64,000 bases of DNA from positions 1-64,000 of the forward strand of contig CALMYH010000035.1 in the NCBI GenBank assembly GCA_937873395.1, in the 5' to 3' direction. The notes under the pieces were generated by a model. That model did no database searches. It worked only from the letters and a program-made list of their open reading frames with translations, and was not told the origin of the DNA. Position numbers and translations under genes: made by a program. Shown here one piece after another: positions 1 to 46,394 of the stretch. Numbering within the stretch: the first letter of the stretch is position 1; the number at the start of each line of letters is the position of its first letter. This stretch comes from an uncultured Burkholderiales bacterium. Its GTDB lineage: Bacteria; Pseudomonadota; Gammaproteobacteria; Burkholderiales; Burkholderiaceae_C.

Positions 1-366
1 GGGGCCCGCGATCGGACGTTCGAGATCGGTCCCGTGCGTCGCCAGTTCGTGCGCGTCCAGGTACACCTGACCATCCTCGACCTTGACGCTGAACTTCGGC
101 GTGCAGCCCTCGTCGGGCGCCGAGGCCTGGCCGTCGCACAGGCCGATGGTCCAGTTGTGCAGCGGGCAGGCCACGTGCGTGCCGAACACGATGCCTTGCG
201 ACAGCGGGCCGCCCTTGTGGGGGCAGCGGTCGAGCAGGGCAAACACGGTGTCCTGGTCGTTGCGGAAGATCGCCACGTCCAGCCCGCGCTCGCGTTCCAC
301 GCGGCGTGAGCCCAGCACGGGAATGTCCTCGACACGGCAGATGGGGGCCCAGGCAGCGGCGTTCAT
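1..366 (-). CDS. nirD: Nitrite reductase (NADH) small subunit NirD, 3' end cut by window edge
   Basis: The first 122 codons are present and the frame is still open at base 1, so only the C-terminus is missing. The product is the Rieske-type small subunit that partners NirB in cytoplasmic NADH-dependent reduction of nitrite to ammonium. A Rieske-like fold is suggested by the segment RCPHKGGPLSQG followed by ACPLHNW. Each segment has a Cys-x-His pattern, whereas many NirD proteins have lost these ligands, so a bound cluster is possible but unproven. Its ATG overlaps the nirB stop as ATGA (363-366), indicating translational coupling. It is the last visible gene of the nrtABC-nirBD operon, and a nitrate reductase gene would be expected to the left. 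Confidence 0.9.
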   Translation of the reverse strand, partial: MNAAAWAPICRVEDIPVLGSRRVERERGLDVAIFRNDQDTVFALLDRCPHKGGPLSQGIVFGTHVACPLHNWTIGLCDGQASAPDEGCTPKFSVKVEDGQVYLDAHELATHGTDLERPIAGP

Positions 367-2858
367 ACAGCACTCCCTTCGGTGGCGGCCGACACGGCCT
401 TGATCGGAATGAACTGCCGCGCGTCCACGGCGGCCTTGTCGAACTCGAACCACGGGTCGGGCTCACCGTCGAGCGCGAACTGCAGCTGTTCCCACAGCGC
501 CTTGCGGCCTTCGGCGTCCTCGATGATTCGTTGCTTCACGTAGTCCATGCCCACGCGGTTGACGTAGTGCACGGTGCGTTCCAGGTACCAGCCTTCGAGC
601 CGGTAGAGCTGCATGAAGGCGCCGGTGTATTCCATGACTTCTTCGGCCGTCCGGAGCTTGACCAAGAAGTGCGCCACCTCGGTCTTGATGCCGCCGTTGC
701 CAGCGATGTACATCTCCCAGCCGGAATCCACGCCGATGATGCCCACGTCCTTGATGCCGGCCTCGGCGCAGTTGCGTGGGCAGCCGCTGACGGCGAACTT
801 CACCTTGTGTGGTGCATACATGCGCCACATGGCGCGTTCCAGGTCCTTGCCCATCTGGGTCGAGTCCTGGGTGCCCATGCGGCACCATTCGCTGCCCACG
901 CAGGTCTTGACCGTGCGCAGCGCCTTGGCGTAGGCGTGGCCGCTGGGCATGCCGATGTCCTTCCAGACGTTGACCAGGTCTTCCTTCTTCACGCCCAGCA
1001 GGTCGATGCGCTGGCCGCCGGTGACCTTGACGGTCGGGATCTGGTACTTGTCCACCGCGTCGGCGATGCGGCGCAGCTCGTCGGCCGTGGTCTCGCCGCC
1101 CCACATGCGCGGAATGACACTGTAGGTGCCGTCCTTCTGGATGTTGGCGTGCGAGCGCTCGTTGATGAAGCGGCTCTGCGGATCGTCTTTCGCCTCCTTG
1201 GGCCAGGTGCTGATGAGGTAATAGTTGACCGCCGGGCGGCAGGTGGCACAGCCGTTGGGCGTCTTCCAGCCCAGGGCCTTGAAGGTGTCGCCAATGGTCA
1301 GCAGCTTCTGATCGCGGATGGCGTCCCGCACGTCCTGGTGGCTGTGCTCGGTGCAGCCGCAGATGGCTTTCTTCTTCGGCGTGGCCGAGTAGCCGGCGCC
1401 GACAGTGGCCATCAGGATCTGTTCGACCAGGCCGGTGCAGGAGCCGCAGCTGGCGCTGGCCTTGGTGTGCTTCTTCACCTCGTCCAGCGTGAACAGGCCC
1501 TTGTCCTTGATGGCCTTGCAGATACTGCCCTTGGTCACGCCGTTGCAGCCGCAGACCTCGTCGGCATCCTGCATGGCCGCCGCCTTGTTCTGCCCCGCGT
1601 GGCCGGCATCGCCGATGTTCGATTCGCCGAACATCAGCTTGTCCCGAATGTCGTGCACCTTGCGGCCTTCGCGCAGCAGCTTGAAATACCAGCCACCGTC
1701 CACCGTGTCGCCGTACAGGCAGGCACCGACCAGCTGGTCGTCCTTGATCACCAGCTTCTTGTAGACGCCGCCGAAGGGGTCGCTCATCACGATCTCTTCG
1801 GTGCCTTCGCCGCCCATGAAGTCACCGGCCGAGAAGAGGTCGATACCGGTGACCTTCAGCTTGGTCGAGGTGAGCGAGCCGGTGTAGCGGCCGATGCCGA
1901 ACTCGGCCAGGTGCGTGGCCAGCACTTTGCCCTGCTCGAACAGCGGCGCCACCAGGCCGTAGGCGATGCCGCGGTGCGCCGCGCATTCACCCACGGCGTA
2001 GATGCGTGCATCGGTCACAGTCTGCAGGGTGTCGCTCACCACGATGCCGCGGTTGACATGCAGGCGCATCTTCTCGGCCAGCGCGGTGTTGGGGCGGATG
2101 CCCACGGCCATCACCACCAGGTCGGCTGGCACTTCGCTGCCGTCCTTGAATTTCACGGCCTTGACACGGCCGTCTTCACCACCGATCAGTTCCTGCGTGT
2201 TCGCGCCCATCAGGAACCGCATGCCGCGCTCTTCGAGCGACTTTTGCAGCAGCTGGCCCGCCACGTCGTCCAGCTGGCGCTCCATCAGCCACGGGGCCAC
2301 ATGCACCACGCTGACCTGCATGCCGCGCTTCATCAGGCCGTTGGCCGCTTCCAGGCCCAGCAGTCCGCCGCCGATGACCACCGCGTGCTGGTACTGCGCG
2401 GCGGCGTCGATCATGGCCTGCGTGTCGGCGATGTCGCGGTAGGCCAGCACACCCTGCAGGTCCTTGCCTGGGAGGGGCAGGATGAAAGGGTTGGAGCCGG
2501 TGGCCATGATCAGGCGGTCATAGTGGGCCGTGACCGCCTGGCCCTCGGCGTTGACGCCGGTCACCACGCGCCTGACGCGGTCCACGTCGGTCACCTTGAC
2601 GCCCGCATGCAATGTGATGCCGTGGTCGGTGTACCAGGCCCAGTCATTGAGCACGATCTGGTCCAGCGTCTGCTCGCCCGCCAGCACCGGGCTGAGCAGG
2701 ATTCGGTTGTAGTTGGGGTGCGGTTCGGCACCAAAGACGGTGATGTCGTACAGGTCGGGCGCGATCTTGAGCAGCTCTTCGAGCGTGCGCACACCGGCCA
2801 TGCCGTTGCCGACCATCACCAGCTTCATCTTCGCCTTGGGGTTGACGCGCATGTCCAT
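363..2858 (-). CDS. nirB: Nitrite reductase (NADH) large subunit NirB, 831 aa
   Basis: This is the siroheme-containing assimilatory nitrite reductase, which reduces nitrite to ammonium with NADH in the cytoplasm. Domains in order are an N-terminal FAD/NAD oxidoreductase (GNGMAG near residue 17), two BFD-like [2Fe-2S] regions (Cys-x-Cys at about 436/438 and 500/502, each followed by a Cys-x2-Cys pair), then the ferredoxin-like and siroheme/[4Fe-4S] half. The four siroheme-cluster cysteines are C653, C659, C693 and C697. I chose the ATG at 2858 because GAGGAG lies 6 bases before it and overlaps the TGA of nrtC. The open frame runs further upstream but that part is inside nrtC and has no homology. 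Length is normal for the family (about 820-850). Confidence 0.95.
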   Translation of the reverse strand: MDMRVNPKAKMKLVMVGNGMAGVRTLEELLKIAPDLYDITVFGAEPHPNYNRILLSPVLAGEQTLDQIVLNDWAWYTDHGITLHAGVKVTDVDRVRRVVTGVNAEGQAVTAHYDRLIMATGSNPFILPLPGKDLQGVLAYRDIADTQAMIDAAAQYQHAVVIGGGLLGLEAANGLMKRGMQVSVVHVAPWLMERQLDDVAGQLLQKSLEERGMRFLMGANTQELIGGEDGRVKAVKFKDGSEVPADLVVMAVGIRPNTALAEKMRLHVNRGIVVSDTLQTVTDARIYAVGECAAHRGIAYGLVAPLFEQGKVLATHLAEFGIGRYTGSLTSTKLKVTGIDLFSAGDFMGGEGTEEIVMSDPFGGVYKKLVIKDDQLVGACLYGDTVDGGWYFKLLREGRKVHDIRDKLMFGESNIGDAGHAGQNKAAAMQDADEVCGCNGVTKGSICKAIKDKGLFTLDEVKKHTKASASCGSCTGLVEQILMATVGAGYSATPKKKAICGCTEHSHQDVRDAIRDQKLLTIGDTFKALGWKTPNGCATCRPAVNYYLISTWPKEAKDDPQSRFINERSHANIQKDGTYSVIPRMWGGETTADELRRIADAVDKYQIPTVKVTGGQRIDLLGVKKEDLVNVWKDIGMPSGHAYAKALRTVKTCVGSEWCRMGTQDSTQMGKDLERAMWRMYAPHKVKFAVSGCPRNCAEAGIKDVGIIGVDSGWEMYIAGNGGIKTEVAHFLVKLRTAEEVMEYTGAFMQLYRLEGWYLERTVHYVNRVGMDYVKQRIIEDAEGRKALWEQLQFALDGEPDPWFEFDKAAVDARQFIPIKAVSAATEGSAV

Positions 2859-2868
2859 GGGGTTCTCC

Positions 2869-3684
2869 TCAGGCCACTTTCTCGACGTGCGCCTGGCGCG
2901 TGTAGAGGAAGTCGATGACCGCTTTGCGGACCTGCTGGTACCGCGCGTCGTCGGCCAGGGCCACGCGGTTGCGCGGGCGCGGCAGTTCGACAGCGAGCAC
3001 TTCACCGATGGTGGCGGCGGGCCCGTTGGTCATCATCACGATCTTGTCGGACAGCAGCACCGCCTCGTCCACGTCGTGCGTCACCATGACCACGGTGGCG
3101 TGGGTCTTGGCGACGATGTCCAGCAGCTCGTCCTGCAGCTTGGCGCGGGTCAGGGCGTCGAGCGCACCGAAGGGCTCGTCCATCAGCAGCACCTTGGGCT
3201 CCATCGACAGGGCACGTGCGATGCCGACGCGCTGCTTCATGCCACCCGAGATTTCGCCGGGTCGCTTCTGGGCGGCCGCGGTCAGGCCCACCAGTGCCAG
3301 GGCGTCGTTGGTGCGGGCCTTCAGCTGGGCCTTGTTTTCCTTGCCACCAAACACGCGCTCGACTGCCAGGTAGATGTTTTCGTAACAGGTCAGCCAGGGC
3401 AGCAGCGAATGGTTCTGGAACACCACCGCGCGCTCGGGGCCGGGGCCGGCGATTTCCCTGTCGGCGCACAGCAGTACCCCGCCGGTGGGTGTGGTCAGAC
3501 CGGCGATCAGGTTCAGCAGCGTGGACTTGCCGCAGCCCGAGTGGCCGATGAGGGCAACAAACTCGCCCTTGGCCACCGTCAGGTGGATGTCGCGCAGCGC
3601 CGGGAACAGCCCCTTCTTGGTCTTGAAGGTCTGCTCGACGCCCTGGATGTCGATGTATTTCGTGGTCATGGCGGCGGTGTTCAT
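2869..3684 (-). CDS. nrtC: Nitrate ABC transporter ATP-binding protein, 271 aa
   Basis: This is the ATPase of a nitrate/nitrite import system of the NrtABC/NasFED type. Visible motifs are Walker A GHSGCGKST (about residues 47-55), signature SGGMKQR, Walker [13 protein letters not shown] and the switch histidine in MVTHD. It lacks the extra C-terminal NrtA-like domain of cyanobacterial NrtC and so resembles the enterobacterial NasD form. Its ATG at 3684 overlaps the stop of the permease gene (ATGA). A second in-frame ATG at 3669 is an alternative start. The next gene is nirB, 10 bases on. The symbol is given by family and context; nasD would be equally valid. Confidence 0.9.
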   Translation of the reverse strand: MNTAAMTTKYIDIQGVEQTFKTKKGLFPALRDIHLTVAKGEFVALIGHSGCGKSTLLNLIAGLTTPTGGVLLCADREIAGPGPERAVVFQNHSLLPWLTCYENIYLAVERVFGGKENKAQLKARTNDALALVGLTAAAQKRPGEISGGMKQRVGIARALSMEPKVLLMDEPFGALDALTRAKLQDELLDIVAKTHATVVMVTHDVDEAVLLSDKIVMMTNGPAATIGEVLAVELPRPRNRVALADDARYQQVRKAVIDFLYTRQAHVEKVA

Positions 3685-4610
3685 GCCTTCACCTCTTCAA
3701 AGGTAAACAGGGAAGCCAGCTTGATGAGGGCGAACTCCAGCAGCAGGCCGACGATGCCGATCACGAAGATGGCGATGATGATGGACGACACGTTGAGGTT
3801 GTTCCACTCGTCCCAGACCCAGAAGCCGATGCCCACGCCACCGGTCAGCATCTCGGCCGCGACGATCACCAGCCAGGCGGTCCCCACCGCCAGGCGCACG
3901 CCGGTCAGCAGGTAGGGCAGCACGGCCGGCAGGAGGATCCTGGTGAAGATCTTCCATTCGCTGAGGTTGAGCACCCGGGCCACGTTCATGTAGTCCTGCG
4001 GCACACGCTGCACACCCACGGCGGTGTTGATGATCATGGGCCAGATCGAGCAGATGAAAATGGTCCAGATGGCGGCCGGGTTGGCGCCCTTGAACACCAG
4101 CAGGCCGATGGGCAACCAGGCCAGCGGCGATACCGGGCGCAGCAGGCTGATCAGCGGGTTGAACATGCGGCTGAGGAACTCGAAGCGGCCGATGGCGAAG
4201 CCGGCCGGAATGCCGACCAGCGCGGCCAGACCAAAGCCGATGCCCACGCGTTGCAGCGACTGCAGCACGTTCCAGCCAATGCCCTGGTCGTTGGGGCCGT
4301 TGCTGTAGAACGGATCGGAGAACACCTCCACCGCCTGATGCCAGGTGTCCAGCGGCTTCGGAATGCCGCTGTTGCCGGTGCTGGCGATCAGCGACCAGAT
4401 GAAGACCAGTAGGGCCAGGCCCAGCACCGGTGGCAGGACGGCGAGCCACAGGCCGCTGAAGTCCCGAGGGCTGCGGGCTGAAGCCGGGGGAGGCATGGGC
4501 CTGTCTGCCCGCGCAGCGGGCTTCTCGGAGGTCACCAGCCCTGCGCTTTTGGGCGGTGCCTCGGCGCCGGGCGCGGCGTCGGCGGGTGTGTGAAATACGG
4601 CGCTGACCAT
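3681..4610 (-). CDS. nrtB: Nitrate ABC transporter permease, 309 aa
   Basis: This inner-membrane permease belongs to the NrtB/TauC-type branch of the binding-protein-dependent transporter family. The first roughly 50 residues are a Pro/Ala-rich cytoplasmic tail, followed by about six hydrophobic segments. The EAA-type loop is seen in RVPQDYMNVARVLNLSEWK. I chose the ATG at 4610 because GACAGGAG lies about 7 bases before it; the upstream open frame has no homology and overlaps nrtA. It sits 29 bases after nrtA and overlaps nrtC by four bases, so it is part of one transcription unit. Substrate assignment rests on NrtA and NirBD next door. Confidence 0.9.
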   Translation of the reverse strand: MVSAVFHTPADAAPGAEAPPKSAGLVTSEKPAARADRPMPPPASARSPRDFSGLWLAVLPPVLGLALLVFIWSLIASTGNSGIPKPLDTWHQAVEVFSDPFYSNGPNDQGIGWNVLQSLQRVGIGFGLAALVGIPAGFAIGRFEFLSRMFNPLISLLRPVSPLAWLPIGLLVFKGANPAAIWTIFICSIWPMIINTAVGVQRVPQDYMNVARVLNLSEWKIFTRILLPAVLPYLLTGVRLAVGTAWLVIVAAEMLTGGVGIGFWVWDEWNNLNVSSIIIAIFVIGIVGLLLEFALIKLASLFTFEEVKA

Positions 4611-4639: not shown

Positions 4640-5926
4640 TCAGGCCTTGATGGCGAAGGAGTCGGCGTACTTGCGCGGGTCCTTGCCGTCCCACACCACA
4701 CCGTCGATCAGCTTGCTGCTGCGCATCTCGCTGCTGGGCAGCGGGGTCTTGGTGGCTTCCGCCGCCTGCTTGTACAGGTCGATCTTGTTGATTTCCCGGG
4801 CCATCTTCAGGTAGTCCGGGTGGCTGTTGATGAGACCCCAGCGCTTGTGTTGCGTCAGGAACCACATGCCATCACTCAGGTAGGGGAAGTTCACCGCACC
4901 GCCATCGTAGAACTTCATGTGGTCGGGGTCGTCCCAGGTTCGACCCAGACCGTTCTGGTAGCGACCCAGAATGCGCTGATTGATCGCGTCCACGCTGGTG
5001 TTCACGTAGGCTCGGGCTGCGATGGTTTCGGCCATGCGCAGCTTGTTCTGCAGGCCGGCGTCGATCCACTTGCTTGCCTCGAGGATGGCCGCGGTCACGG
5101 CGCGACAGGTGTTGGGGAATTTTTCGGTGAATTCGCCGGTGGTGCCCAGCACTTTCTCGGGATGGTCTTTCCAGACATCCTGGGTGGTGGCGGCCGTGAT
5201 GCCGATGCCGTCGATGATGGCCCGGTGGTTCCAGGGCTCGCCCACGCAGAAGCCGTCCATGTTGCCTACCCGCATGTTGGCCACCATCTGCGGAGGCGGC
5301 ACCGTAATCACCTTGGAGTCCCTGAACGGGTTGATGCCCGCGCTGGCCAGCCAGTAGTACAGCCACATGGCATGGGTGCCGGTGGGGAAAGTCTGCGCAA
5401 AGGTGTACTCGCGTTTTTCGCTGGCCATGAGCTTGGCCAGTCCGGTCACATCCTTCGCACCCGCGTCCGCCAGCTTCTTGCTCAGCGTCAAGGCCTGGCC
5501 ATTGCGGTTCAGGGTCATGAGCACCGCCATGTCTTTCTTCGGGCCTGCGGTGCCCATGTGCACGCCGTAGATCAGGCCGTACAGCACGTGGGCAAAGTCC
5601 AGCTCGCCATTGACCAGCTTGTCGCGTACGCCGGGCCAGCTGGCCTCCTTGGTCGGGACGATCTTCACGCCGTATTTCTGGTCGATTCCCAGCACCGACG
5701 CCATCACCACACTGGCACAGTCGGTCAGGGGAATGAAGCCGATCTTCACTTCCTTCTTCTCCGGCGCGTCGGACCCGGCGGCCCAGACACCGCTGTGACC
5801 CAGGGTGGAGAAGAAGGTGGCGGTGCCGAGGGCGACGCCGGTGCGCATGAAGTCGCGTCGCGAGGGCGTGGCTTCGGTCAGGGGGGCGGGTGCCGGGCTG
5901 GAAGTGGCCGTGGGGTTGTGTCGCAT
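4640..5926 (-). CDS. nrtA: Nitrate ABC transporter substrate-binding protein with Tat signal, 428 aa
   Basis: This is the NrtA/NasF-type periplasmic nitrate/nitrite-binding protein. The N-terminus carries a twin-arginine signal (SRRDFM) followed by a hydrophobic stretch ending in AAG, so Tat export is likely. The mature part begins near EVKIGFIPLTDCASVVMA, which is typical of the nitrate-binding CmpA/NrtA family. AAGGAG lies 6 bases before the ATG at 5926; the upstream open frame is the untranslated leader. It is the first gene of nrtABC-nirBD. Expression is probably governed by the sigma-54 promoter near 6091-6105 and by antitermination in the leader, described separately. Confidence 0.93.
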   Translation of the reverse strand: MRHNPTATSSPAPAPLTEATPSRRDFMRTGVALGTATFFSTLGHSGVWAAGSDAPEKKEVKIGFIPLTDCASVVMASVLGIDQKYGVKIVPTKEASWPGVRDKLVNGELDFAHVLYGLIYGVHMGTAGPKKDMAVLMTLNRNGQALTLSKKLADAGAKDVTGLAKLMASEKREYTFAQTFPTGTHAMWLYYWLASAGINPFRDSKVITVPPPQMVANMRVGNMDGFCVGEPWNHRAIIDGIGITAATTQDVWKDHPEKVLGTTGEFTEKFPNTCRAVTAAILEASKWIDAGLQNKLRMAETIAARAYVNTSVDAINQRILGRYQNGLGRTWDDPDHMKFYDGGAVNFPYLSDGMWFLTQHKRWGLINSHPDYLKMAREINKIDLYKQAAEATKTPLPSSEMRSSKLIDGVVWDGKDPRKYADSFAIKA

Positions 5927-5964: not shown

Positions 5965-5999
5965 AAAGAAAAACGGCGCCCATTCGCGACCGCGCCGTT
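5965..5999 (-). terminator. Leader intrinsic terminator upstream of nrtA
   Basis: A perfect 8-bp stem (AACGGCGC at 5992-5999 and GCGCCGTT at 5972-5979 read on the minus strand) with a 12-base loop runs into TTTTTCTTT. It lies between the presumed promoter and nrtA, ending about 40 bases before the start codon. A terminator in this position, downstream of two ANTAR-type hairpins, is the hallmark of NasR-controlled antitermination. Confidence 0.85.
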
Positions 6000-6014
6000 G
6001 AGCGCAGAAGGAAT

Positions 6015-6068
6015 GGACGCCGTTGTCCGTGTCTGGGAAGACTTTGAAGCCCGGGCCGCCGTTGGCCC
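6015..6068 (-). promoter_or_regulatory. ANTAR two-hairpin RNA target in the nrtA leader
   Basis: Two small hairpins on the minus strand have identical hexanucleotide loops AACGGC. P1 is GGGCC-AACGGC-GGCCC (6053-6068, 5-bp stem) and P2 is GGAC-AACGGC-GTCC (6015-6028, 4-bp stem), 24 bases apart. Known ANTAR targets have paired stems with six-base loops carrying A at position 1 and G at position 4, and both loops fit. The terminator follows 15 bases later. The NIT-ANTAR protein gene is immediately upstream. Binding by that protein is inferred. Confidence 0.82.
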
Positions 6069-6090
6069 CGATTTCTCTGCAACGATCTAA

Positions 6091-6105
6091 GCAGTTACCG
6101 TGCCA
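6091..6105 (-). promoter_or_regulatory. Sigma-54 promoter for nrtABC-nirBD
   Basis: The minus strand reads TGGCACGGTAACTGC, which matches the sigma-54 consensus TGGCAC-N5-TTGC at all but one base. The GG (-25/-24) and GC (-13/-12) elements are 10 bases apart, as required. Transcription would start near 6079, about 11 bases before the first leader hairpin. The presence of upstream dyads and an IHF match supports it. Confidence 0.8.
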
Positions 6106-6146: not shown

Positions 6147-6200
6147 TTTCGGGGCTCACCCGGGGTCCTTGCACGCCCGGTCAAACCGGTCGCACGCCGC

Positions 6201-6257
6201 GCACCAAACATGTGCACCAAGGGTGTGCGGGTTTCGCTTCAGGCACGTCTTTTGTGC
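6201..6257. promoter_or_regulatory. Three NtrC-like dyads (GCAC-N7-GTGC)
   Basis: Dyads of the form GCAC-N7-GTGC occur at 6201-6215, 6214-6228 (flanked as TGCAC on the left) and 6243-6257. This is the core of the NtrC enhancer consensus. The first two overlap by two bases; the centres lie at roughly -129, -142 and -171 from the inferred start. They end 16 bases before the nasR stop codon, so the enhancer fills the space downstream of nasR. Confidence 0.68.
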
Positions 6258-6272
6258 GGTGCAGCACATGCT

Positions 6273-7550
6273 TCATCGGACCGCGCCGGGCAGCACATCC
6301 GCCATGGCCAGCACCGCCTCGGCCACCTCGACCAGGCGCTTGTTCTGGTTCATGGCCATCTGCCGCATGGTCTTGTGGGCCTCGGCCTCGCTGAGCTGAC
6401 GGTGCGCCATCAGCAGGCCCTTGGCCCGTTCGATCAGCTTGCGTTCGTTCAGGCTGGCCCGCACCGTGTCCAGCTCGTCACTGACCGTCTGCAGGCGCCG
6501 GGCCTGCTCTTGCACCAGGTCCAGGATGGAGCGGTCCAGGGGGGACGACCAGGCCGGCGCAGTGGGCGCGGCGGGTGAGGGAGGTGGAGCCCCGGAGTCC
6601 TCGAAAAAGGACAGAGTGCGCGGGCCTGTGCGCGGCTCGCTGCTGGTGCTGGCCAGCAGGCTGTCGAGTACCGCCAGCTCGCCTCGGGCCAGATCCAGCT
6701 GCTGTTCACACAGGGCCTGCAACTCGTCGGCCAGTCGGTCTTCGACGGACTTCATCGCGTCCATCCGCGCGGTGCAGGCATCGAACCAGACCTGGCTGAG
6801 CGCCTTGTCCAGCGCCTGACCGGCCTGGGCGGTGCAGATCACCCGCCGCAGCCGCTCCAGCCCGGCCAGGGTCTCGGCCTGCTGGGCGCGGTCCCAGGCC
6901 GCCTTCAGGTCCTGGCTGGCAAATTCGGCAAACACCCGCAGGCAGCGCTCCTGGTTGTCGATCAGGTGCAGCAGGTGCTGCTGGTCAGCCGCTTCGGAGC
7001 GCCCGGAGCCGAAGGCCGCTGAGCCACAGGCGCGTTCCTGGCCCGCCAATTCCTTGCCCTGCATGAAATTGAACAGGGCCACCAGCCGGCGCGAGATCTC
7101 AGGGTCCCCGGCGCTGTCGGCGGCCTCGAACACCACCGCAAGAAGTCCGTTGATCAGACGGATGTACGCCTGCGTGGCGCGTCGCGGGGCCCAGGCGCGT
7201 GAGCGCACCTGCTGGCGCAGCGCGGGCAGGGCATCCAGGCCCTGCATGGCGTAGGCGATGCGGCCGAACAGCCGGGCGCCCTGTCCGGGGCGGGGCTCCA
7301 TGTCCAGGCGACCGAAACCGTCCAGCAGTTCCTGTTGCAGGGTGGTGTTGGCCGATGCCTGGGTGTCCAGTTCGACGGCCCACTGCCCGTCCTGACTGGC
7401 CAGGTACAGGTTGGACAGGCCACGCTCGCGTTGCAGGCCGTGCACCAGCCGGGCCGTCACACGCACCAGCGCACTGGTCTGCCCCAGCTGGAACAACTCG
7501 TTGATTTCGCAGCGCTTGGCCGCAATGAGGAAATGCAGTCCCGTTTTCAT
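6273..7550 (-). CDS. nasR: NIT-domain ANTAR antiterminator (NasR-like), 425 aa
   Basis: The protein has an N-terminal nitrate/nitrite-sensing NIT region (about residues 30-280, with [18 protein letters not shown] typical of the domain), a low-complexity Pro/Ala linker near residue 335, a coiled-coil-like stretch, and a C-terminal ANTAR RNA-binding domain (about 365-425, including [10 protein letters not shown] and [13 protein letters not shown]). In Klebsiella NasR, nitrate or nitrite binding allows the ANTAR domain to prevent termination in the nas operon leader. The same arrangement is seen here: the target-like hairpins and terminator lie in the gap to nrtA. I chose the ATG at 7550; the ribosome site is weak. 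The gene is divergent from tsaD. Confidence 0.88.
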
Positions 7551-46218: not shown

Positions 46219-46228
46219 ACGCAGCTTC

Positions 46229-46313
46229 ACCGGGGGTGCCGGGCCGCATGTGCCGGCCGGGCTGAGAAACACCCCTCTCACCTGATCTGGGTCGTGCCAG
46301 CGTAGGGAGCGTG
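46229..46313 (+). promoter_or_regulatory. TPP riboswitch (THI element)
   Basis: The core signatures are all in order: CGGGGGTG at the left of the first stem, GCTGAGAAACACCCCT (the CUGAGA core and closing strand), CACCTGATCTGGGTCGTGCC, and AGCGTAGGGAGCG. It lies about 80 bases before the thiB start. TPP binding would be expected to block ribosome access or cause termination, giving thiamine-repressed uptake. Confidence 0.93.
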
Positions 46314-46394
46314 AGCCGTAGCGGACACCTGTCATTCGTTCCGCCCCGTCTTTGCCCGCCGTCGCCCGGCCAGCCCGTCGGCGAAAGGTTTCAC

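Follow-up and report, generated by a model that had tools for sequence, protein, structure and literature searches.

A predicted NasR-type nitrate attenuator ahead of nrtA in an uncultured Burkholderiales bacterium and its likeness to the narK RNA and P11 families

How the 346 bases between a nasR-like gene and an nrtA-like gene (6273 to 5926) might govern the nitrate genes that follow them is the question raised by this locus. The DNA analysed (the window, 64,000 nucleotides) begins at base 1 of its contig (C35) in a 3.7 Mb genome; the nasR-like gene, the leader, nrtA, nrtB, nrtD, nirB, and nirD all lie on the minus strand, in that order (Table 1), and the contig end breaks the nitrate operon off inside nirD (1-369, minus strand). 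A first-pass annotation, made from the letters alone, had described an ANTAR antitermination leader of a nitrate/nitrite operon, with a NIT-ANTAR gene upstream and nrtA downstream. These neighbours are borne out: the upstream protein has both domains and matches PDB chain 4akk, the Klebsiella NasR structure, across the two of them (E 7.4e-52), it accounts for the only ANTAR match in its genome, and nitrate transporter and nirBD genes stand behind the terminator. The element is real and of a known kind, and the interpretation first given to it is partly supported. Judged from its sequence, it is very probably a NasR/ANTAR-type nitrate-responsive transcription attenuator controlling nrtA-nrtB-nrtD-nirBD.

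Table 1. Features of the nitrate locus and its leader (positions in the window)
Feature	Position	Strand	Evidence or remark
nasR-like gene, 425 aa, NIT + ANTAR	6273..7550	-	PF08376 E 5.7e-55, PF03861 E 2.2e-19
Two overlapping NtrC-like sites, tentative	6200..6229	-	10/12 consensus positions each
σ54-type promoter TGGCACGGTAACTGCT	6090..6105	-	-24 GG 6104-6103, -12 GC 6092-6091
P1 hairpin GGGCC-AACGGC-GGCCC, 5 bp, loop 6063-6058	6053..6068	-	sequence, fold
P2 hairpin GGAC-AACGGC-GTCC, 4 bp, loop 6024-6019; antiterminator, presumed ANTAR site	6015..6028	-	sequence, fold
Terminator 5' arm, 14 bp: P2 loop, P2 3' strand, and ATTC	6011..6024	-	fold, relatives
Inner hairpin CTGCGCT/GGCGCGG, covering part of the third AACGGC	5990..6007	-	fold
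Third AACGGC (5999-5994) + GC, 5' arm of the 8-bp stem first proposed, partner 5979-5972	5992..5999	-	judged not to be the terminator
Terminator 3' arm GAATGGGCGCCGTT	5972..5985	-	fold, relatives
Terminator T-rich run	5965..5973	-	sequence
nrtA-like nitrate-binding protein gene	4640..5926	-	NMT1_2 PF13379 E 7.9e-98
nrtB-like permease gene, start approximate	3681..4610	-	PF00528
nrtD-like ATPase gene	2869..3684	-	PF00005
nirB-like nitrite reductase gene, start approximate	363..2954	-	Pyr_redox_2, Fer2_BFD, NIR_SIR
nirD-like gene, cut by contig end	1..369	-	Rieske domains, open frame

The span first annotated, 5965-6068, is exactly P1 through the T-run, and both of the hairpins with AACGGC loops described there are found. 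The leader is of the dual-hexaloop type, with A1 and G4 in each loop, the hexaloop positions stressed for ANTAR leaders (PMC3369931, PMC7496416). AACGGC does occur three times on the minus strand of the leader, the third copy following the two loops; the hexamer is not over-represented in the window as a whole (47 occurrences against 42.9 expected), and the fold is the special part. An AAGGAG precedes the nrtA ATG, after the T-run.

The fold departs from the one first drawn in its terminator. A terminator with a T-rich run exists as described, but its stem is not the 8-bp one; the predicted fold and the relatives agree on a 14-bp stem, AACGGCGTCCATTC/GAATGGGCGCCGTT, with its 5' end in the P2 loop. 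The minimum-energy fold pairs AACGGCGUCCAUUC, which comprises the loop and 3' strand of P2 and the four bases after them, with GAAUGGGCGCCGUU, and drawn straight the two make 14 pairs, one of them G-U. The 5' arm, which had been taken to begin with the third AACGGC, is accordingly made of P2 loop and P2 3' strand; because P2 and the terminator are built from the same bases they are mutually exclusive, an arrangement already described for ANTAR leaders, and this overlap is likely the antitermination mechanism. Folding of the leader, which the first-pass annotation had proposed as a check, does give a strongly structured RNA (-65.4 kcal/mol versus -45.9 +/- 3.8 in shuffles; z -5.2; 0/200 shuffles as low), with the long stem in place of the short one. 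In the unconstrained fold the mean pairing probability of the terminator is 0.98 for the window leader, and it exceeds 0.9 in 31 of the 40 leaders of the family alignment described below.

It is very improbable that the 8-bp stem is the terminator after all and that the triple hexamer is itself functional, as a decoy or a third binding site. The 8 pairs exist and are worth -13.8 kcal/mol alone, and an alternative helix to the same arm reaches at least 6 pairs in 12/40 leaders and at least 8 in 5/40, the window leader included; the long stem is nevertheless far stronger (-22.1 kcal/mol alone and -35.7 with the inner hairpin, against -5.5 for P2, all as drawn pieces) and is backed by compensatory changes. 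Only 1 of 41 family leaders, that of the window, and 1 of 76 leaders in a second set (L153) have a further AACGGC in the stretch from P2 to the terminator arm, and the decoy idea was set aside on these counts and on the preference for the long stem. Moreover, ANTAR binding to a P2 that shared no bases with the terminator would have no obvious way of preventing termination. When P1 and P2 are imposed on the window leader, which abolishes the long terminator by construction, the 8-bp stem has a mean probability of 0.05 and the inner hairpin, which tops the terminator and in the fold can stand while P2 is held, one of 0.54, so that the short stem does not simply take over termination once P2 is captured. 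Under the same constraint the freed 3' arm pairs elsewhere (mean above 0.5) in 21/40 leaders, and in the window leader its GCC pairs with something at 0.77; since other partners are found, the model does not show a 3' arm left single, and these folding energies take no account of kinetics. Additional pairing of the P1 loop with the terminator arm was also rejected, P1 position 3 being C, A, or T whatever the arm.

Upstream of P1 lies a putative promoter of σ54 type, with the -24/-12 pattern of such promoters, that the first-pass annotation had missed. Transcription is therefore expected to start before P1, near 6079 as predicted from this pattern, and not downstream of the hairpins, the case that the annotation had considered against its own reading. 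Two σ54 gene pieces lie at contig ends in the genome. Two overlapping sites further upstream resemble the NtrC consensus; an equally good site occurs in 0.8% of 2000 mononucleotide shuffles, and one with at least 10/12 positions in 13 of the 40 leaders examined, the window leader included, so NtrC sites before the leader are only suggestive.

Relatives of the window protein were taken at E 1e-40 or better and occur in 62 of 250 genomes of its family. Forty-three loci (L002-L043 and L061, that of the window's genome included) were examined; the σ54-type pattern is present in 40 of them, and a P1/P2/terminator parse succeeded in 41, L025 and L039 giving no P2 (the contig of L039 ends in the gene). 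The arrangement, which the annotation had described as known from enteric bacteria, is not confined to these, although within the window's own family only the 62 genomes counted above gave a NasR relative. P1 loops in the 41 leaders read AACGGC (19), AAAGGC (9), AATGGC (9), AAAGAC (2), AATGAC (1), and one mis-pick, and P2 loops AACGGC (36), AAAGGC (4), and AATGGC (1). The identity of the two loops, to which importance had been attached, is what independent variation of P1 and P2 would give: 17 of 41 leaders have identical loops, with about 18 expected.

With L037 left out for its mis-picked P1, 40 rows form the alignment (A1). The P1 loop has A, A, G, and C at positions 1, 2, 4, and 6 in 40/40, with G (37) or A (3) at position 5 and C, A, or T at position 3, and the P2 loop is AANGGC in 40/40 on a nearly invariant stem; the parse itself looked for AANGRC in P1 and AANGGC in P2, which favours this conservation. 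Pairing in P1 and the terminator is kept by compensatory change: 95.3% of cells are paired versus 84.9 in shuffles, 70 cells are changed on both sides versus 16.4, and the covariation value is 0.328 versus 0.132, differences that kinship among the rows inflates; sliding the partners by 1-3 columns, which preserves kinship, gives at most 0.077. Within P1, four pairs were counted, and three of them show changes on both sides.

A second, named set began from 80 named NasR loci, 77 of which had a plus-strand match to a leader model, R1, and 76 of which could be parsed; stored DNA ends soon after nasR in the three without a match (L128, L143, L173), and L147 was not parsed. Four leaders are common to both sets, so that the two are not independent. 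P2 loop and terminator arm change together, AACGGC standing with GCCGTT in 41/76 and AAAGGC with GCCTTT in 35/76, in a parse that demanded at least 7 pairs from a P2 candidate and so does not test loop/arm pairing independently; because 27 of the 35 AAAGGC loci are titled Variovorax, the change may represent few events. Identical loops number 23/76 (about 25 expected), and the σ54-type pattern, under a looser definition, 75/76. P1 loops of AACGGT and AACGCA in this set are possible mis-picks. An AAGGGC between P2 and the arm in 20/76 leaders was considered as a loop; by eye it looks like part of the apical stem.

These comparisons bear on a further alternative, slightly less probable still than the short stem, in which a constitutive terminator and promoter operate without ANTAR control and the hairpins merely end nasR transcription. 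The element does sit just behind nasR. The σ54-type pattern, however, lies between nasR and the hairpins, as in 75/76 of the named set, so the terminator would end the nrtA transcript too, and P1 is retained, with its four invariant loop positions, although it lies outside the terminator; the rows in which those positions are invariant had been picked with AANGRC, which favours the invariance.

In the preferred reading, that of nitrate-responsive attenuation, nitrogen shortage would lead NtrC and σ54 to initiate at about 6079. In the absence of nitrate, RNA polymerase would halt at the U run once the 14-bp terminator had formed. Nitrate or nitrite would cause the NIT domain to release the ANTAR domains, which would grip P1 and P2; with P2 held and not unzipped, the terminator 3' arm would lack its partner and polymerase would read through, and the inner hairpin may help by keeping the third AACGGC out of a short replacement stem. 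The P2 loop is doubly constrained, since it has to suit the protein and also pair with the terminator arm leading into the U tract; P1 presumably has to suit the protein alone. Retention of A2 and C6 in P1 is a hint that the NasR proteins of this lineage recognise loop positions beyond A1 and G4.

The regulator itself resembles Klebsiella NasR without being identical to it at the positions to which functions have been assigned. Of the Klebsiella residues R340, K345, K347, R366, and N373, whose roles are described in PMC7496416, the window protein keeps all except K345, which is Arg; at its positions 188, 190, 389, and 392, E191 is replaced by Ala, R193 by Gln, E359 by Ala, and W362 by His. Trp 362 is needed for RNA binding in Klebsiella, and changing E191 lets that protein bind without nitrate (PMC7496416). 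Of three inter-domain contacts to which the closed state of Klebsiella NasR is ascribed, two are lost in the window protein (E191, R193), and because the E191 change frees the Klebsiella protein from nitrate, the lineage of the window may maintain its off state by other means. Over 122 close loci, of which some appear in more than one set, His stands at position 362 in 105 and Tyr in 16, position 191 is Ala in 62, and position 193 is Gln in 98. RNA binding and the off state of the window protein may, from these substitutions, differ in detail from those of Klebsiella.

More distant NasR-like proteins, with 34-41% identity, are also found in the family (L044-L063, L061 apart). Their leaders are similar, R1 matching at E 1e-5 or better in 14 of the 19 searched, and in four loci viewed the genes behind them are a formate/nitrite transporter (L053, L059) or begin with a nirB-like start (L060, L062). 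At the position of 362 this candidate NIT-ANTAR group has Phe in 15/20, which runs against the statement in PMC7496416 that NIT-ANTAR proteins never have Phe there. Rfam at E 0.01 or better gave one match over the 20 distant loci, to RF03032 in L059 (38.5 bits, below cut-off).

With 150 of 4745 candidates scored in the window's own genome, R1 has one strong match, the window leader (E 1.8e-22), together with an opposite-strand mirror; that plus-strand match is a mirror of the terminator, and seven others, at E 0.46 or worse, were taken as chance. Ten candidates were scored per genome across 369 genomes of the class, and at least 57 of these have R1 matches at E 1e-3 or better, a lower bound. 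Opposite-strand mirrors excluded, some genomes have R1-type leaders in three places (G410, G275) or two (G302, G454, G330, G376), several of them 2-11 kb apart; with one place in the window's genome and several in these, multi-operon regulons of this kind probably exist beyond it. Elsewhere in the window, at 46222-46326 on the plus strand, a TPP riboswitch (57.3 bits, just above the cut-off of 54.3) precedes an ABC binding protein-like open reading frame; the GTG start listed for this frame at 46311 falls within the riboswitch, and translation probably begins at a later codon.

Rfam at gathering score returned no ANTAR-type family over the window. At relaxed scores the leader matches RF03032, the narK RNA, with 27.1 bits, and because this is below the gathering cut-off of 43.2 it is not filed there, though built alike; relaxed matches on the leader to ctRNA_p42d, suhB, ncS035, a thermometer, and SAH were dismissed as chance, being terminator-like or weak. 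The RF03032 consensus starts with GGCaCAgcucUUGCU, which is -24/-12-like, its single modelled hairpin is P1 with an AACGGC loop, and its 3' end, ACGACAAAGACGUCG, left unpaired by Rfam, reads as P2 with the loop AAAGAC. Differences remain: the P1-P2 linker is longer in the window, and no pairing of P2 or of a terminator is drawn in the Rfam model as printed. The σ54-type start, P1 with AACGGC, and P2-like sequence are common to both.

To our knowledge the narK RNA has so far been without a known partner, and its distribution in the order points to one. RF03032 matches at E 1e-3 or better occur in 45 of 399 genomes, 3 of the 399 having one above cut-off, and ANTAR matches in 188/399, the two counts being taken as the same 399 genomes from their equal number and handles. 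All 45 RF03032-positive genomes have an ANTAR gene, versus 143 of the 354 others (Fisher p 8e-17, optimistic since the genomes are related), and none of the 211 ANTAR-free genomes has an RF03032 match. An ANTAR domain lies on the same strand within 400 bases upstream of the match in 28/45 and within 10 kb in any arrangement in 40/45; in the remaining five it is on another contig (four) or far away (one, G788). By length only, 23 of the 28 close genes are in frames of less than 400 aa (NasT-like size) and 5 in frames of at least 400 aa (NasR-like size). One match, in G020, is itself a nasR-nrtA leader of the leader set (L012/L198).

Thirty loci were fetched from the 45 matches. P1 with at least 3 pairs is present in 30/30 and P2 in 29/30, both largely built into the model; a helix that the model lacks, joining the P2 loop by at least 7 pairs to an arm further downstream, is found in 25/30, 24 of them with at least 6 T at the end, and this helix is at or below 1% of shuffles in only 14/30. 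The terminator script allowed starts at loop positions 1-3, and in L206 the helix, seen by eye, starts at position 4. The promoter GG and TGC are kept in 26/30 on a loose check. R1, which contains the terminator, unlike RF03032, and shares P1 and P2 with it, matches all 30 loci at E 1.8e-4 or better. Behind these loci an nrtA-like start follows within 150 bases in 19/30 and further off in 3 more, and a nirB-like start within 150 bases in 2; others precede MFS transporters, narK-like by family (L186, L188, L194), a molybdopterin oxidoreductase (L196), an OprD porin (L203), and an EAL protein (L206). In the last, from G711, an RF03032-type leader (P1 AACGGT, P2 AACGGC, terminator by eye) stands directly before the EAL-domain gene (L206:1501-2880), a possible link from nitrate to c-di-GMP; the listed ANTAR match of this genome is on another contig.

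RF00625, P11, is a second family of this appearance. The window leader scores 25.0 bits against it, below the gathering cut-off of 70, and P11 shares with that leader a σ54-type start, a hexaloop, GGACAAAGGCGUCC, and a GGACGCC terminator arm. Matches occur in 10 of 229 class genomes, one above cut-off, and R1 matches all 10 loci. The full-score example (L212:1501-1640) contains TTGGCACAGCTTCTGCT, the hexaloop CTC-AACGTG-GAG, and GGACAAAGGCGTCC ... GGACGCCTTTTTT, followed by nirB. The Pseudomonas nirBD leader NalA is described as σ54-dependent and subject to NtrC and to NasT antitermination (review PMC12830290), and the position before nirB in L212 points to P11 being NalA. P11-type leaders are in that case already known in substance, and what is new is the equation of the Rfam P11 entry with NalA.

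Taken together, these observations give good, if slightly lesser, confidence that the narK RNA is not a separate class: its first 15 conserved positions would be a σ54 -24/-12 element and the rest a NasT/NasR P1/P2 target with an unannotated terminator overlapping P2, P11 would be the same architecture before nirB, and both families would belong with the window leader to one widespread kind of nitrate attenuator. No paper linking the narK RNA (RF03032) with ANTAR proteins was found in a literature search that was incomplete for subscription papers and supplements, which makes this absence weakly supported. If the assignment is true, the narK RNA is expected to be bound by NasT or NasR and to answer to nitrate, not to a small molecule of its own; this re-identification is the more interesting outcome, beyond the window leader itself. 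P11 has been called a regulator of the nirB operon and is reported to alter C. elegans behaviour (eLife 2025, PMC12080996). Since full-score P11 combines a σ54-type promoter with an ANTAR-type leader, its amount is expected to vary with nitrogen status and with nitrate; P11-like 'small RNAs' would be terminated attenuator transcripts whose level tracks NtrC activity and drops when nitrate permits read-through, which would matter for experiments that treat such RNAs as free-standing regulators. That the terminated leader (about 110 nt) might, besides acting in cis, serve as a small RNA with targets elsewhere is unlikely in our analysis: Pseudomonas P11 and NfiR are described as acting RNAs, and P11-type leaders are of similar architecture, but no sign of such targets was noticed in the window's genome, and deletion of a leader takes away the control of its own operon along with the RNA, so that effects in trans are hard to separate.

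The locus places in the Hydrogenophaga/Variovorax group a full NasR circuit whose proposed mechanism is here revised, and the 40-leader alignment gives a first indication of the requirements of the protein (AANGRC in P1) as distinct from those of the terminator (a P2 loop that pairs with an arm running into the U tract). ANTAR leaders before nitrate transporter and nitrite reductase genes are already in print (PMC3369931). The closest known system is the NasR/nasF leader of Klebsiella oxytoca, which shares the NIT-ANTAR regulator, dual hexaloops with A1 and G4, a P2 overlapping the terminator, and nitrate assimilation genes (PMC3369931, PMC7496416); the window differs in its nrtA-nrtB-nrtD-nirBD genes, its Hydrogenophaga-type lineage, His at 362, the loss of E191 and R193, and the P1 loop AANGRC. 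The Paracoccus nasA and Pseudomonas NalA leaders share hairpins, a terminator, and an ANTAR antiterminator, and NalA also the σ54 promoter and NtrC of the present reading (PMC12830290); these NasT/NasS systems use a separate NasS sensor, whereas the window has a single NIT-ANTAR protein. The eut leaders controlled by EutV/EutW in Enterococcus have the dual hexaloop and a P2 embedded in the terminator as well, but with a REC-ANTAR regulator and ethanolamine genes (PMC8934654).
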